Shown one piece after another: positions 4,501-34,008 of a stretch of DNA of 34,008 nucleotides (its first letter is position 1; the number at the start of each line of letters is the position of its first letter). A program made the position numbers and the translations under genes. Below the pieces are notes generated by a model. That model had not been told where the DNA came from, did no database searches, and saw only the letters and a program-made list of their open reading frames with translations. Origin of the DNA: a virus; IMG/VR virus record IMGVR_UViG_3300037882_000220, positions 1-34,008 of that record; one strand, written 5' to 3'.

Positions 4501-4600
4501 TGTGTTCCCCCGAACAGTTACATTCAATCAAAGTTAGGCAATCAGTGCAGATGTGGTGCGGTCCATCATCATTTCCACAATTAACGCAGGAATCACTCAC
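4493..4600 (-). CDS. 35-aa four-cysteine zinc microprotein
   Basis: GTG start at 4600. The product has CVNC, then CTDC after 12 residues, then two further Cys (ECNCS), so it could hold one zinc. It begins inside the end of the methyltransferase (GTGAGTGA overlap) and ends inside the start of the primase (ATGAGTAA), exactly bridging the two genes. That placement, plus the Cys spacing, supports a real coding region despite its size. Function unknown; small zinc peptides recur in this genome. Confidence 0.6.
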   Translation of the reverse strand: MSDSCVNCGNDDGPHHICTDCLTLIECNCSGEHNE

Positions 4601-6357: not shown

Positions 6358-6429
6358 TGGCGTTGCAGGAATCGAACCTGCAGTTGCATCCCCCGATGCA
6401 ATCCCTCATCTGTGAACCATCACAACGCC
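6358..6429 (-). tRNA. Degenerate tRNA-like element
   Basis: On the minus strand a canonical T-arm (GCAGG-TTCGATT-CCTGC) is followed by CAACGCC, which pairs with a 5' GGCGTTG to close a 7-bp acceptor stem, and the next base is A. A hairpin TTGCAT-CGGGGG-ATGCAA occupies the anticodon-arm place. If counted as a 5-bp stem its loop has 8 bases, TCGGGGGA, without U33; GGG would suggest Pro. No normal D-arm can be drawn, the T-stem and acceptor compete for one base, and CCA is not encoded. It could be a decayed tRNA-Pro, a tRNA mimic, or a structured leader for the FmdB-like gene. A second hairpin (6434-6440 / 6456-6462) lies just upstream. Confidence 0.45.
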
Positions 6430-6465: not shown

Positions 6466-6918
6466 TTAGTTAACTGGTTTTGCTCCCAGTTGTGCTAACA
6501 ATGCCTGCACTGCAGGGTCATTGATATTAGCACTGGCAGGTGCTGGCGCAGGTGCTGGTGCGCCCGCGTTTCCGATAAATGCGTTTGCCTTAGCAACTGC
6601 ATCAGCATCGCCTGTTGCATCGAGCAGAATCCACGGCGCTGACTTACCAGGCTTTGCTTGGCCCTGTCCGATACGAGCCAATACCTTTTGGCCAATTTTT
6701 GTTTTCAATGCGTTCTTCAAAGCTACATTAAAGAACAAGACTGATTCGTGATTGAAGCCTGTATCTAAATCATTGATACGAACTTCAATTGCATCGGCAT
6801 CACCATGAACTGTAGGGATGCCAGTTTTGTATTCAATTGCTTCAAGAATCAATAGGTGGCCGTTAAGGTCGGCAACCTTTACTGATTCTGTATTACTACT
6901 TGGTGCTGAAAAAGCCAT
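6466..6918 (-). CDS. Putative single-stranded DNA-binding protein
   Basis: 150 aa. An N-terminal beta-rich region of ~110 residues (NGHLLILEAIEY, AIEVRINDLDTG, VLFFNVALKNAL, KVLARIGQG, APWILLDA) is followed by an Ala/Pro-rich linker (GAPAPAPAPAS) and a short acidic/helical tail ending GAKPVN. This layout (OB-like core, flexible linker, interaction tip) is that of SSB-type proteins, and similar proteins sit in actinophage replication regions. A Cas4-like nuclease lies upstream and a methyltransferase downstream. ATG 6918 follows GGGGG at 6927-6931. The SSB reading is inferred from pattern and context. Confidence 0.55.
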   Translation of the reverse strand: MAFSAPSSNTESVKVADLNGHLLILEAIEYKTGIPTVHGDADAIEVRINDLDTGFNHESVLFFNVALKNALKTKIGQKVLARIGQGQAKPGKSAPWILLDATGDADAVAKANAFIGNAGAPAPAPAPASANINDPAVQALLAQLGAKPVN

Positions 6919-6949
6919 TTGGCTTTCCCCCGTTTCTTTTGGTTTGGTG

Positions 6950-7796: not shown

Positions 7797-8111
7797 TTAG
7801 TCCTCGTTCACAATAGAGAATCTTCGAGAAGTAGATACTATCTCAAGAGCATCTATAACCTGCGCAGGCAGGATTTCACGGGCGCGTTTGGTATCAAAGC
7901 GCCTTGACTCAACAAATGTGTAGCGAACAACTGGGCGGTTTAAGAACATACCCAATTGATTATCGCCCATTGCTCGCTCGATGTGTGCGCGAGCAACATC
8001 TGCAACTTCTTGCAGTTCTTTGATCTTGGCTTGGGCAGATTTATACTGCTCCAGCCAAGCGGCAGTGTTGGCATCAAAGTCCACCACGCCTGTTTCTATT
8101 TCTACACTCAT
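7797..8111 (-). CDS. Exonuclease-associated helical protein
   Basis: 104 aa from MSVEIETGVVDF. The middle is a helix (NTAAWLEQYKSAQAKIKELQEVADVARAH as two segments), followed by a compact C-terminal part (NRPVVRYTFVE ... RRFDTKRAREILP ... TSRRFSIVNED). Similar segments accompany YqaJ/RecB-like viral exonucleases, so it is likely a partner of the nuclease immediately downstream. The open frame extends to 8165, but ATG 8111 directly follows a TGGGGG hairpin (8111-8128) that supplies the Shine-Dalgarno. An ATG at 8123 is less likely. Confidence 0.7.
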   Translation of the reverse strand: MSVEIETGVVDFDANTAAWLEQYKSAQAKIKELQEVADVARAHIERAMGDNQLGMFLNRPVVRYTFVESRRFDTKRAREILPAQVIDALEIVSTSRRFSIVNED

Positions 8112-8122
8112 ACTAACCCCCA

Positions 8123-8506
8123 TTAGTAATAGTTCTTTTGTTTGAAATGTTCCCACGCTCCGCAAGGACCGCTGGAACCGTACTTTCTGCCTATGTAGGC
8201 AAGTGCTGCGATGGTTTGAGCAACAGTTGATTTACTGCGCTTCATTCCAAGATTTCGATAAGTGCCATCCAATAACTGCCCAACCCCGGATGCGGTGCTG
8301 GTCGGATTTTTCTTATCTTGCCAGGCGCTTTCCTTGCTCATAAGAGCGTTAAAGCACTTGAACTGATGTGCGGTAAGTAGCTCGCGAGCCACTTCCTTTG
8401 GATTAACCTGCATTAAATGCGGGCGATCTTTGTAAATCACCAATTGTGGTACTGCAGGCGGTGCCATTATTGCTTGAACTGTTAATGAAGTTCCCACGCT
8501 AACCAC
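8123..8506 (-). CDS. Lytic transglycosylase-like (SLT) protein
   Basis: 127 aa from GTG 8506. The region ALMSKESAWQDKKNP with its Glu, followed by SGVGQLLDGTYRNLG and a later TIAALAYIGRKYGS, matches the SLT/goose-lysozyme pattern (ES...N, GxxQ, AxxYI). It would cleave peptidoglycan glycan strands. The frame is open upstream of the GTG and reads RLIRRLAVIIVVSVGTSL, a convincing signal peptide, but no ATG, GTG or TTG codon lies there; only ATT, ATC or CTT is available. So either a rare start is used or the protein lacks its signal. It overlaps nothing downstream and lies far from the lysis genes. Confidence 0.75.
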   Translation of the reverse strand: MVSVGTSLTVQAIMAPPAVPQLVIYKDRPHLMQVNPKEVARELLTAHQFKCFNALMSKESAWQDKKNPTSTASGVGQLLDGTYRNLGMKRSKSTVAQTIAALAYIGRKYGSSGPCGAWEHFKQKNYY

Positions 8507-11770: not shown

Positions 11771-11806
11771 AAAAACCCCCTGCAGGAACGGCTGCAGGGG
11801 GTTTTT
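11771..11806. terminator. Bidirectional Rho-independent terminator
   Basis: A perfect 15-bp inverted repeat (11771-11785 and 11792-11806) has a 6-base loop GAACGG. Its outer parts are AAAAACCCCC and GGGGGTTTTT, so each strand gives a GC-rich stem ending in a T-run. It lies between the convergent rightward island and the leftward operon ending at 11834. Confidence 0.95.
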
Positions 11807-13166: not shown

Positions 13167-13185
13167 TGATTCCCCCGAATCTTAA

Positions 13186-24444: not shown

Positions 24445-24840
24445 TGGCTTTAGCTCGTTCCTTCATATAGATTGTGATTGCTTCAAGAATTCCATCAGGC
24501 GCATCTAACAAATCACTTACAGGAATACCAGTTTCAACCGCAACGGCTGCAATCGTATAGGTTAAACTGTTGCGGTGGATTCGAAAGAACTATCACTGTC
24601 CAATTCGGCAGAAATAATAGTGTCTAAGAATTCAGGGCCAAAAAGTTTAACCACAACTCCATTTACCTGCATTGCTTTCCAAGCCAACCAATAGATGTGT
24701 TCAATTTTTTGTTGCTCTCCCAAAAGTTTAGGCATCCCTGCACCAAACTGTTGTTCAAATGCAACAATGATACGAGGTGTCAGTTTGTAGGACACCTCAA
24801 CACCTTCGGTTGTCTTTACTTTTACTGCTAATCCATCCAT
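24437..24840 (-). CDS. Tail assembly chaperone, -1 frameshift product (G-T type)
   Basis: The upstream frame (24562-24840) ends at TAA, but the -1 frame continues from about 24583 to 24437 with a good protein sequence: RIHRNSLTYTIAAVAVETGI, then PVSDLLDAPDGILEAITIYM and KERAKANG. The -1 frame is blocked by TGA-TAG just before the joint, so the shift must occur in the short window after it. A plausible site is TTC (24585-24583), where tRNA-Phe can slip back to TTT. The fused product is ~134 aa. This G/G-T arrangement before the tape measure is conserved in siphoviruses. Confidence 0.82.
24562..24840 (-). CDS. Tail assembly chaperone, short product (G type)
   Basis: 92 aa: MDGLAVKVKTTEGVEVSYKL, then TPRIIVAFEQQFGAGMPKLL, WLAWKAMQ, and an acidic end SAELDSDSSFESTATV. 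Short proteins of this kind form the first half of the tail chaperone and coat the tape measure during assembly. ATG follows GGGGG (24846-24850). The ending is also the frameshift zone for the longer product. Confidence 0.8.
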   Translation of the reverse strand: MDGLAVKVKTTEGVEVSYKLTPRIIVAFEQQFGAGMPKLLGEQQKIEHIYWLAWKAMQVNGVVVKLFGPEFLDTIISAELDSDSSFESTATV

Positions 24841-24858
24841 CTTTTCCCCCTTAGTTGA

Positions 24859-27001: not shown

Positions 27002-27666
27002 ATATCGTGCTGCCTATCATCTAGCCAATAACTCTTTGAGTGAGGAAGTATCGCGCCAGTGTGGGCATAAATTGGAAAACCTAGTGAGCGAACTCGGCGG
27101 CAAAACTGTAAATCTTCGCCTATCCATTCGCCGTTGATTGGGCCATCCCAAAACCAGCACCAATCTTGCCCCTGGTGTGGGTCGGCATCTGCTCTGATTG
27201 CTTCAAGAACGCTTCGGTGGATTAGCAAACATCCAGTACCTGCTGCATCTACTTGGAAAATTGAATCTTTATCGTACTTATTTAACGGCAAGAAGCCTTC
27301 AGGGGCATCTTGAAAAATCGTTGGCACTGGTTGTGGGTACGGATAACCTGTTTCAAAACTTGCAAACACCAAACCTGCTACAACTGGGCGCTCTTTGTCA
27401 TGCGCGGCTTCAATCAATTTATCAAATGCTTCAACAGAAAGTTGCTCATCTGAATCCATCATTAGTAACCAATCAGATTTGGTTTCTAAAAATTGTTTTA
27501 CTAAACGATTGCGTTGCTTTGAAAGCAACCCTGAACCCTTGATTCTAATAAATGGGCCAAGTCGTGCTGATCGTGATTGAGCAACCTGAACCAAGCTAAA
27601 TGCAAACCCACCATTAACTGTTCCTGGGTCACAACTACCAATTGAAACTTTATGTGCCGACTTCAT
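26989..27666 (-). CDS. GT-A type glycosyltransferase in the head gene block
   Basis: 225 aa. The DxD-like motif MMDSDE is seen near residue 70, followed by EAFDKLIEAA, GLVFASFE, VDAAGTGCLLIHRSVL and GEDLQFCRRVRSLG, all typical of GT2-like enzymes. The N-terminus starts MKSAHKVSIGSCDPG and carries no signal. It may glycosylate capsid or tail proteins, since it lies between the capsid and connector genes. ATG follows GGGGG in GATTCGGGGGAATC (27668-27681). Confidence 0.83.
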   Translation of the reverse strand: MKSAHKVSIGSCDPGTVNGGFAFSLVQVAQSRSARLGPFIRIKGSGLLSKQRNRLVKQFLETKSDWLLMMDSDEQLSVEAFDKLIEAAHDKERPVVAGLVFASFETGYPYPQPVPTIFQDAPEGFLPLNKYDKDSIFQVDAAGTGCLLIHRSVLEAIRADADPHQGQDWCWFWDGPINGEWIGEDLQFCRRVRSLGFPIYAHTGAILPHSKSYWLDDRQHDIWNA

Positions 27667-27690
27667 AGATTCCCCCGAATCATTTAAGAA

Positions 27691-27732
27691 GTAAGAGGCG
27701 GGTTAGTCGGGGGAGAAAAACCCGCCTCTTAC
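27691..27732. terminator. Strong hairpin after the capsid gene
   Basis: A perfect 14-bp inverted repeat (27691-27704 / 27719-27732) with a 14-base loop containing CTCCCCC on the minus strand. On the minus strand it is followed by TTCTTAAATG; on the plus strand by AATTTTTAAC. A partial terminator after the capsid gene would lower expression of the genes that follow, as seen in other phages. Confidence 0.8.
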
Positions 27733-27748
27733 AATTTTTAACTTTCGA

Positions 27749-29095
27749 TTAGAAAGTTGGTGCTACCAAACCAGTGCCTGAAATGATTGAGGCTGCTAGT
27801 GGGTAACGCTCTGCAGAGAAGGCACCAAATCCATAAACAACAGACTTGATTGTGAGAGATGAAGCACCAGTTGCATCAAATGACAATGCGAATGGTGATC
27901 CTGGCTGCTCCCAAAGGTGCATTTCAGGTGCTGCTACGCAGTAAATCTGATCTTGGTTTGTTGCTGCACCAAGATTAGTTACAACATTTGCATCAGCAAT
28001 GATTGGCAAGCCCATCATTGAGTAACCTGAATTGCCGTATCCAACTACGCCTGCACCTGCTGCAGTTGCGTTCATTGGACCATTTGCAGTTGGAACTACT
28101 AATGGGCGGCCTGTTGTGTCCACTGCTGCTAGCAAGAAAGCTAGACGGCGTGGGTGCATAATCCAGTGTGTTGGTGTTTCAAACACATTTGACTGAATCT
28201 GTTGAATTGCATCAGCCAACTTTGGATATAGCAAAGCAACTGTTGGTGTTGTTGCAGTGAAAGTGATTGCATTTCCACCTGAATTTGCGATTCCCTTGAA
28301 CTGGCCATTTGAGCCTGTTCCATTTAGAACCTGATTATCAACTGTTGTGTGCCATGAACGGATTAGGTCAGCAACAACAAATGTGTCAATGCCTGTTCCG
28401 CGCTCAATTGCCTGGCGTGATAGGTCCTGTTGTCCAGCAATTGTACGAACTGGGATGCTCAAAAGTGTATCGTCAGCATCAGTTTCTGATACTGCAGTGT
28501 TCTGAGTTTCCTGAACTGCAGTTGATGTACCTGTTGTCATACGGGAAATCTCAAGAGACATTCCAGCAGCAGGTAGTGTGTGCTTTGCAGTTGCAAAGTC
28601 TGCAGTTGGGCGGCCTGCGCGTGCATAAGGTGCAGCGAGGTCAACCAAGTATTGTGGAACAACTAATCCAGCGAAGTTTGATGTACCAACATCACGGCGC
28701 TCAATTGATTCTTCCTTTGTGTGGCGAGCAAGGCGCTCTTGTGCTGAGTAATCTCCGCGAATCTGAGCGTTAAAAACATCCTTAACGAATGAAACTTCAG
28801 CTTCAGGGTTGTATGTGCGAACTTCGCGTGTAACTGTTGAGCCACCAACGCGAGGTGTGATTACTGCTGCAACAGATGAGCGCATTTCTGCAACCTTTGC
28901 ATCTGCTGCTGCCTGTGTTGTGAACTTTTCAATCTTTGCATCTAGTGCGCGTGCTTCTTCTACAAGAGCATCAACCTTATCGGTTTCCTCTGCAGTAAGG
29001 TCGGTGCGAGATTCTGCGGCTACTGCCTCAAGAACTGCATCCATTTCTGCCTTAACTGCATCACGGCGCTCTACTACATTGTCAAAATATGACAT
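27749..29095 (-). CDS. Major capsid protein (HK97 fold)
   Basis: 448 aa. The N-terminal ~100 residues are a helical scaffold-like delta domain (MSYFDNVVERRDAVKAEMDA ... EIEKFTTQAA), followed by a conserved region near 105-135 where the prohead protease would cut. The rest holds HK97-type segments: GLVVPQYLVDLAAPYARAGR, ISRMTTGTSTAVQETQ, DLSRQAIERG, NQVLNGTGSNGQFKGIAN, HPRRLAFLLAAVDTTGRPLV. ATG follows TTAGGAGATCACTAA, a canonical ribosome site. Confidence 0.92.
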   Translation of the reverse strand: MSYFDNVVERRDAVKAEMDAVLEAVAAESRTDLTAEETDKVDALVEEARALDAKIEKFTTQAAADAKVAEMRSSVAAVITPRVGGSTVTREVRTYNPEAEVSFVKDVFNAQIRGDYSAQERLARHTKEESIERRDVGTSNFAGLVVPQYLVDLAAPYARAGRPTADFATAKHTLPAAGMSLEISRMTTGTSTAVQETQNTAVSETDADDTLLSIPVRTIAGQQDLSRQAIERGTGIDTFVVADLIRSWHTTVDNQVLNGTGSNGQFKGIANSGGNAITFTATTPTVALLYPKLADAIQQIQSNVFETPTHWIMHPRRLAFLLAAVDTTGRPLVVPTANGPMNATAAGAGVVGYGNSGYSMMGLPIIADANVVTNLGAATNQDQIYCVAAPEMHLWEQPGSPFALSFDATGASSLTIKSVVYGFGAFSAERYPLAASIISGTGLVAPTF

Positions 29096-33849: not shown

Positions 33850-33871
33850 TTGTTTCCATTCGCTCAGGAAT

Positions 33872-33887
33872 CTAACGCCCCCGTTAG
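33872..33887. repeat. G4-loop inverted repeat upstream of terminase
   Basis: CTAACG (33872-33877) and CGTTAG (33882-33887) flank CCCC, GGGG on the minus strand. It has the same form as the Shine-Dalgarno hairpins before the primase and both glycosyltransferases, but here the distance to the assigned start is about 23-38 bases. Confidence 0.7.
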
Positions 33888-33930
33888 TTTCGATTACCTT
33901 GCTTTTTCAAAATTCGGACATTTGGTACAA

Positions 33931-33974
33931 ATCAGTTCAAACCAGTTCAAACCAGTTCAAACCAGTTCAAACCC
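33931..33974. repeat. 10-bp tandem direct repeats at the right end
   Basis: ATCAGTTCAA then three exact ACCAGTTCAA units plus a partial ACCC. The 10-base period matches one helical turn, so all copies face the same side of the DNA. It lies upstream of the terminase genes near the genome end and may be a terminase or cos-binding array. Confidence 0.85.
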
Positions 33975-33985
33975 GCCACCCCCCA

Positions 33986-34000
33986 CACATCGGCGATGTG
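33986..34000. repeat. 7-bp palindrome near the right terminus
   Basis: CACATCG-G-CGATGTG is a perfect dyad with one central base, eight bases before the contig end. Together with the tandem repeats it could mark a cos site. No terminal redundancy with the left end was seen. Confidence 0.7.
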
Positions 34001-34008
34001 CGCTTGCA

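Follow-up and report, generated by a model that had tools for sequence, protein, structure and literature searches.

The leader of a family 2 glycosyltransferase gene (GT2) in this phage genome resembles an RNA switch that controls translation from within the transcript, judging by its sequence and those of its relatives. Between the major capsid gene and GT2, the mRNA folds into a pair of adjacent hairpins whose loops complement each other; the strong one presents CCCCC (C5) and the weak one the GGGGG (G5) ribosome site of GT2. The C5 loop would pair with G5, either by "kissing" or as a pseudoknot after the weak hairpin opens, and this pairing would hide the Shine-Dalgarno (SD) sequence, so that GT2 would be made far less than capsid protein from the same transcript. 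In our view, the idea that loop-loop pairing or a pseudoknot masks this site in cis has a slightly better than even chance of being correct. It is our best reading; action of the C5 loop in trans is more speculative.

The window, by which we mean the whole 34,008-base IMG/VR virus record that was analysed, carries these features on its minus strand (Table 1). Genes there are ordered as in a tailed phage of actinobacteria: the small and large terminase are followed by portal, protease, major capsid, GT2, connectors, tail genes, tail fibres, a group 1 glycosyltransferase (GT1), replication genes and a WhiB-like regulator. Based on the WhiB gene and the relatives, the host is likely a freshwater actinobacterium. 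By terminase sequence, the closest isolated phage is Pontimonas phage phiPsal1 (49% identity), which has AGGAGG-type sites and lacks the two-hairpin module. The C-loop/G-loop pair is also absent from Planktophila phages E7 and F5, whose glycosyltransferases are all distant (31%), and the first isolated phages of Ca. Nanopelagicales are a different group without the module (PMC10202952). For comparison we used approximately 580 related viral loci. These are metagenome contigs, many of them closely related, and the counts below are of distinct sequences rather than independent events; counts of leaders are lower bounds that cover the matches listed. Gene starts in the relatives were set by homology and SD position. 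A scan of genome contigs with GATTCGGGGGAATCNATG gave 44 scattered matches in unrelated taxa that resemble chance, and we rejected the pair of loops as a host feature. No prophage was found in the three genomes reached via such chance loci. In a Micrococcales metagenome-assembled genome (L351, 3199-3232, minus strand), GATTCGGGGGAATCGATG lies ahead of a 104-aa ORF directly 3' of an argininosuccinate synthase-like gene, where its presence is probably due to chance.

Table 1. Positions in the window of the genes, hairpins and ribosome sites discussed in the text.
Feature	Position	Strand	Remarks
Major capsid protein gene	27749..29095	-	phrog_2263, 1e-44; upstream of C-loop hairpin
C-loop hairpin	27691..27732	-	GTAAGAGGCGGGTT-TTTCTCCCCCGACT-AACCCGCCTCTTAC; between major capsid gene and GT2; from sequence and relatives
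Linker	27682..27690	-	TTCTTAAAT, 9 nt; joins both hairpins
G-loop hairpin of GT2	27668..27681	-	GATTC-GGGG-GAATC; holds GT2 ribosome site
GT2, family 2 glycosyltransferase, 225 aa	26989..27666	-	phrog_34859, 1.4e-31; PF00535, 26.1 bits (cut-off 23.3)
G-loop hairpin of GT1	13168..13181	-	GATTC-GGGG-GAATC; holds GT1 ribosome site
GT1, group 1 glycosyltransferase, 358 aa	12090..13166	-	PF00534
Hairpin of 104-aa gene	8111..8128	-	TACTAA-TGGGGG-TTAGTA; ahead of 104-aa gene
104-aa gene	7797..8111	-	weak match to end of RecE-like exonuclease families (phrog_434, 1.5e-9)
G5 ribosome site of 92-aa gene (24562-24840)	24846..24850	-	invariant, 124/124; no hairpin
G5 ribosome site of 150-aa gene (6466-6918)	6927..6931	-	invariant, 34/34; no hairpin
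tRNA-like RNA	6359..6429	-	second arm 6384-6401, TTGCATC-GGGG-GATGCAA
Hairpin ahead of polymerase/primase gene	4503..4516	-	TGTTC-GGGG-GAACA; not conserved, 3/69
Hairpin upstream of small terminase	33872..33887	-	CTAACG-GGGG-CGTTAG
Twelve G5 runs	27672, 24846, 21238, 19512, 13730, 13172, 12104, 8117, 6927, 6337, 6174, 4507	-	

Within the loop of the C-hairpin lies UCCCCCGA. Its reverse complement, UCGGGGGA, is found 9 nt downstream in the hairpin that holds the GT2 ribosome site; in the window, TCCCCCGA of the C-loop and TCGGGGGA of that ribosome-site hairpin are likewise reverse complements. The first-pass annotation of this DNA, which drew attention to the G-loop hairpins, had omitted this likely partner. 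We found that all of at least 129 distinct GT2 leaders, from 336 GT2 loci, contain both C5 and G5. C5 was also present in 181 of 185 distinct regions 3' of the capsid gene; of the four exceptions, three are truncated at the end of a contig and one (L070) has an extra gene between. In L070 the extra gene is HNH-like, the C-loop hairpin stays beside GT2, and a further inverted repeat, ATTATCGGGTTGGGTCTAATTAGGCTCAACCCGATAAT, lies ahead of the insert. When all IMG/VR contigs were scanned for the C-loop...G5 pattern, 54 of the 58 matches listed preceded GT2. The other four have no stem enclosing C5 or no correctly spaced start and resemble chance, so we rejected the module at genes other than GT2.

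The stem of the C-hairpin is 13-19 bp long in nearly all leaders and occurs in 78 distinct sequences. Its arms pair with their own partners at 94.8% of positions, compared to 52.5% (maximum 57.3%) when partners were swapped. Among 51 distinct hairpins without indels, all 14 of 14 pairs had changed on both sides with 98.7% of cells paired; sliding the partner by 1-3 columns reduced this to 36-52%. A second alignment had 15 of 16 pairs compensated. The only near-constant part is the loop, CCCCC followed by G/A-A. As a comparison of sequences, this covariation is about as clear as covariation gets. The SD hairpin of GT2 (at least 4 bp) is kept in 94 of the 129 leaders, in the arm versions GATTC/GAATC, AGTTC/GAACT, GAATC/GATTC and TCTC/GAGA. 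The remaining 35 leaders, from several clades (CAGGGGGAAAC and others), keep GGGGG without such a hairpin, and strict kissing is consequently not universal. Judged by the compensatory changes, the C-loop and G-loop hairpins of the GT2 leader do exist as RNA structures; loop pairing, repression by that pairing and its relief are what we infer for it.

GT2 leaders combine two conserved hairpins, complementary loops and an SD sequence in one of the loops, as expected of kissing loops. The end of G5 lies 3-7 nt from the start codon. Complementarity past the five core pairs varies, for example ACCCCCCGA with CAGGGGGAA. The predicted C-loop:SD duplex has an energy of -12 to -22 kcal/mol versus -8.6 to -10.5 kcal/mol for SD:anti-SD, values that ignore the cost of closed loops. 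There was no covariation between the C5 and G5 loops, the core bases being invariant in the 129 leaders; since they never vary, it is their complementarity and constancy that argue for pairing. Because the C5 loop sits in a stem that is free to vary, directly upstream of a looped G5, the arrangement is best read as a C5-G5 pairing device.

The G-loop hairpins were also analysed as a set. All five inverted repeats around G runs that the first-pass annotation had listed are present on the minus strand where it placed them, together with a sixth that it had omitted, in the second arm of the tRNA-like RNA. They exceed chance in the comparison with shuffled sequence that it had proposed: requiring arms of at least 5 bp and a G4 inside a 4-7 nt loop, we found six minus-strand hairpins, whereas 60 dinucleotide shuffles averaged 1.2 and never had more than 4. 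In the window, 5 of 87 GGGG tetramers form tetraloops with arms of at least 5 bp, compared to 64 of approximately 34,000 positions for all tetramers pooled. In related loci, 62 of 2967 GGGG (2.1%) lie in tetraloop hairpins versus 0.15% for all tetramers. Ribosome sites with G4 or more had 64 hairpins versus a mean of 10 (maximum 26) after left and right flanks were randomly re-paired. Also in agreement with the annotation, which had counted at least twelve minus-strand genes with GGGGG before the start, twelve G5 runs precede plausible start codons on that strand.

The five hairpin sites behave differently across related loci. In a survey of leaders from 2922 distinct genes in 425 related loci, clustered by protein and scored for hairpins of at least 5 bp whose loop contains G4 or more, three families stood out: GT2 (59/67), GT1 (37/59) and the 104-aa gene (23/32). 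The polymerase/primase family had 3 of 69 and nearly all other families had zero. Thus, a hairpin as a general rule of G5 genes was rejected, since it is confined to three gene families. The annotation's claim of conserved structure with compensatory arms holds for these three, although the outcome that it had named as refuting, GGGGG kept while the pairing is lost, does occur in some clades (the 35 of 129 GT2 leaders without a hairpin of at least 4 bp), and fails at the polymerase/primase gene, where relatives keep GGGGG with other flanks and the hairpin is probably due to chance.

At GT1 the arms of relatives include GATTC/GAATC, AGTTC/GAACT, ACATC/GATGT and GAATC/GATTC. Pairing is 88.8% versus 67% in shuffles, with 18 double changes, and the inner UC/GA pairs and GGGG are nearly invariant. 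In a phylogeny of 68 GT1 genes, at least 23 changes of arm label are needed, with unpaired and no-G5 leaders counted as states of their own. GATTC and AGTTC are swapped in separate branches, and whole-leader recombination may lie behind part of the changes. One GT1 clade (CCAGGGGGAATA) has retained GGGGG and lost the hairpin, as have several GT2 clades, so that the hairpin is favoured but not essential. After the GT1 region there is a perfect two-way terminator, AAAAACCCCCTGCAG-CCGTTC-CTGCAGGGGGTTTTT (11776-11801). The hairpin of the 104-aa gene ends on the A of its ATG, and its left arm contains the stop codon of the upstream ORF (8123..8506). It has two or three arm versions in relatives, mainly TACTAA/TTAGTA and TATTGA/TCAATA, around an identical TGGGGG loop.

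The hairpin at 33872 lies 12 to approximately 45 nt upstream of the small terminase start in relatives, where it overlaps the 3' end of upstream ORFs that are unrelated to each other and vary from clade to clade. Pairing persists although the arms change (CTAACG/CGTTAG, AATTTATCG/CGATAAATT, ATCTACCG/CGGTGGAT), and a further version, AACCTGTCG/CGGTGGGTT, has G-U pairs. The small terminase has its own SD in relatives, so that the annotation was right to doubt a simple ribosome site here. The element is structured and may be a packaging signal or a leader element. Several observations concern the genome ends. Positions 1-22 of the window, CAGACGTGTGCTCTTCCGATCT, are an Illumina adapter left in the assembly, and reads running into adapter suggest that the phage DNA has a fixed physical terminus near position 23. 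Many independent contigs (L006-L067) begin with a ..GGGGGGTTTG.. motif and do so about equally far upstream of the terminase (window 33870-34008). The start of L006, GTGCGCGGTATAAAC-CCCGATGCCC-TGCAAACGCAG, looks like two genome ends joined, as at a cos site. Tandem TTTGAACTGG repeats of variable copy number occur near the genome end in the window (33900-33970, minus strand), L003 and L015.

The use of G5 itself is specific to particular genes. In five families, 82-100% of leaders have it, as GGGGG or, at the 92-aa gene, as the overlapping AGGGG. These families are GT1 and GT2, the 104-aa gene, the early 150-aa gene and the 92-aa gene of the tail region. When 34 families with at least 25 members were compared, these had the five most strictly kept SD pentamers; in the other families the best pentamer was kept in 12-79% of leaders, mostly below 65%. 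Most other well-sampled families never use G5, including the capsid (0/127) and large terminase (0/171) genes. Being both gene-specific and the most strictly kept SD, G5 seems more constrained than ribosome sites ordinarily are. Because it is equally invariant at genes without a C-hairpin, its constancy does not by itself point to a partner in cis. The 92-aa and 150-aa genes keep it without any hairpin. The 92-aa gene lies between the major tail gene and later tail genes and had no PHROG or Pfam match; by position and appearance it is possibly a tail assembly chaperone. Joint control of several genes, which the annotation had proposed, is possible.

This pattern of G5 use bears on the possibility that C5 acts in trans. 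The C5 of the abundant capsid mRNA, or of its processed 3' end, could pair with the G5 sites of GT1, the 92-aa, 150-aa and 104-aa genes and GT2, turning them down late in infection. The coincidence of the strictest SD pentamers with the G5 families and the avoidance of G5 by most others are consistent with this. GT1 has no C-hairpin of its own, yet keeps the UCGGGGGA hairpin with changing arms, and only one minus-strand C5 run in the window sits in such a hairpin loop. On the other hand, the G5 genes do not share one timing, the C5 loop should pair mainly with the neighbouring GT2 site, and G5 may be conserved for another reason. We regard this as possible but unlikely. A related proposal, which we would put forward only tentatively and also judge unlikely, is that the capsid-side CCCCC pairs in trans with the GGGGG of about five genes, tying their translation to capsid mRNA, with the tRNA-like RNA as a possible decoy. 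That RNA is conserved and shares the UCGGGGGA loop with the GT1 and GT2 sites. It has an acceptor stem GGCGUUG/CAACGCC, a UGGU D-loop and the T-arm GGTTCGATTCC; its second arm is GGGG-capped in relatives with compensatory changes (TGTATC/GATACA, CACATC/GATGTG, CGCATC/GATGCG), and a sister version has a GCAA loop. ARAGORN found no tRNA at this site, and a tRNA-Sec model scored 24.8 bits, below its gathering score of 47.

The C-hairpin might instead terminate the capsid mRNA or stabilise its 3' end, with the SD hairpin merely keeping the ribosome site accessible. Its position after a highly expressed capsid gene, its long perfect stem and the placing of G5 in a loop rather than a stem fit these roles, but neither requires an invariant C5 complementary to the next SD. 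An intrinsic terminator was rejected, as a terminator scan gave 0 sites at the C-hairpin and there is no U tract. Overall we find this explanation doubtful. More improbable still is a phage or host RNA-binding protein that reads the G-loop hairpins, as the annotation had proposed, and perhaps also the C-loop hairpins: it would account for a UC-GGGG-GA core that stays constant while the outer arms vary freely (GT1, GT2 and the tRNA-like RNA), but it leaves the complementary C5 loop unexplained and the SD hairpin is lost in the 35 GT2 leaders mentioned above. A riboswitch was rejected because the C-hairpin has a free stem sequence, only its C5 loop is constant and it has no conserved aptamer residues; no Rfam family reached its gathering score in the window.

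If masking in cis at GT2 is correct, abundant freshwater phages would have a self-contained and deeply conserved way to set protein ratios post-transcriptionally without obvious regulators. GGGGG use is bimodal, which suggests that a single ribosome-site sequence can single out a group of phage genes to be controlled together.

Plasmids and bacterial small RNAs provide known cases of ribosome sites masked by a complementary RNA loop. Among the papers that a search of open-access literature turned up, none, judged by title and abstract, describes such an element in a phage. Staphylococcal small RNAs with C-rich loops use unpaired UCCC-motif loops to pair with G-rich ribosome sites. These are independent bacterial RNAs with many host targets, whereas the GT2 C-loop is in a phage leader beside one gene. 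In FinP/traJ of F-like plasmids, a leader hairpin presents the ribosome site and a complementary C-rich hairpin loop controls it, and the GT2 leader likewise has its ribosome site in one hairpin and a complementary C-rich loop in another. However, FinP is transcribed from the opposite strand as an antisense RNA in its own right and is aided by FinO, whereas the GT2 C-loop is on the same strand and adjacent to its target, and the two are unrelated in sequence. On the opposite strand of 27500-27900 there was one weak promoter-like match, with 0.5 expected by chance. The traJ 5' UTR model (RF00243) scored 18.7 bits on the GT2 leader, below its gathering score of 50, and the leader is not a member of that family. 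In the repZ leader pseudoknot of ColIb-P9 (IncB and IncK plasmids), a hairpin loop pairs in cis near the ribosome site, and at GT2 a leader hairpin loop and the ribosome-site region are also complementary in cis. The repZ pseudoknot activates translation and is blocked by an antisense RNA; we found no antisense gene or upstream coupling peptide at the GT2 leader. Because the complement at GT2 covers the SD itself, repression would be expected there, unlike at repZ.
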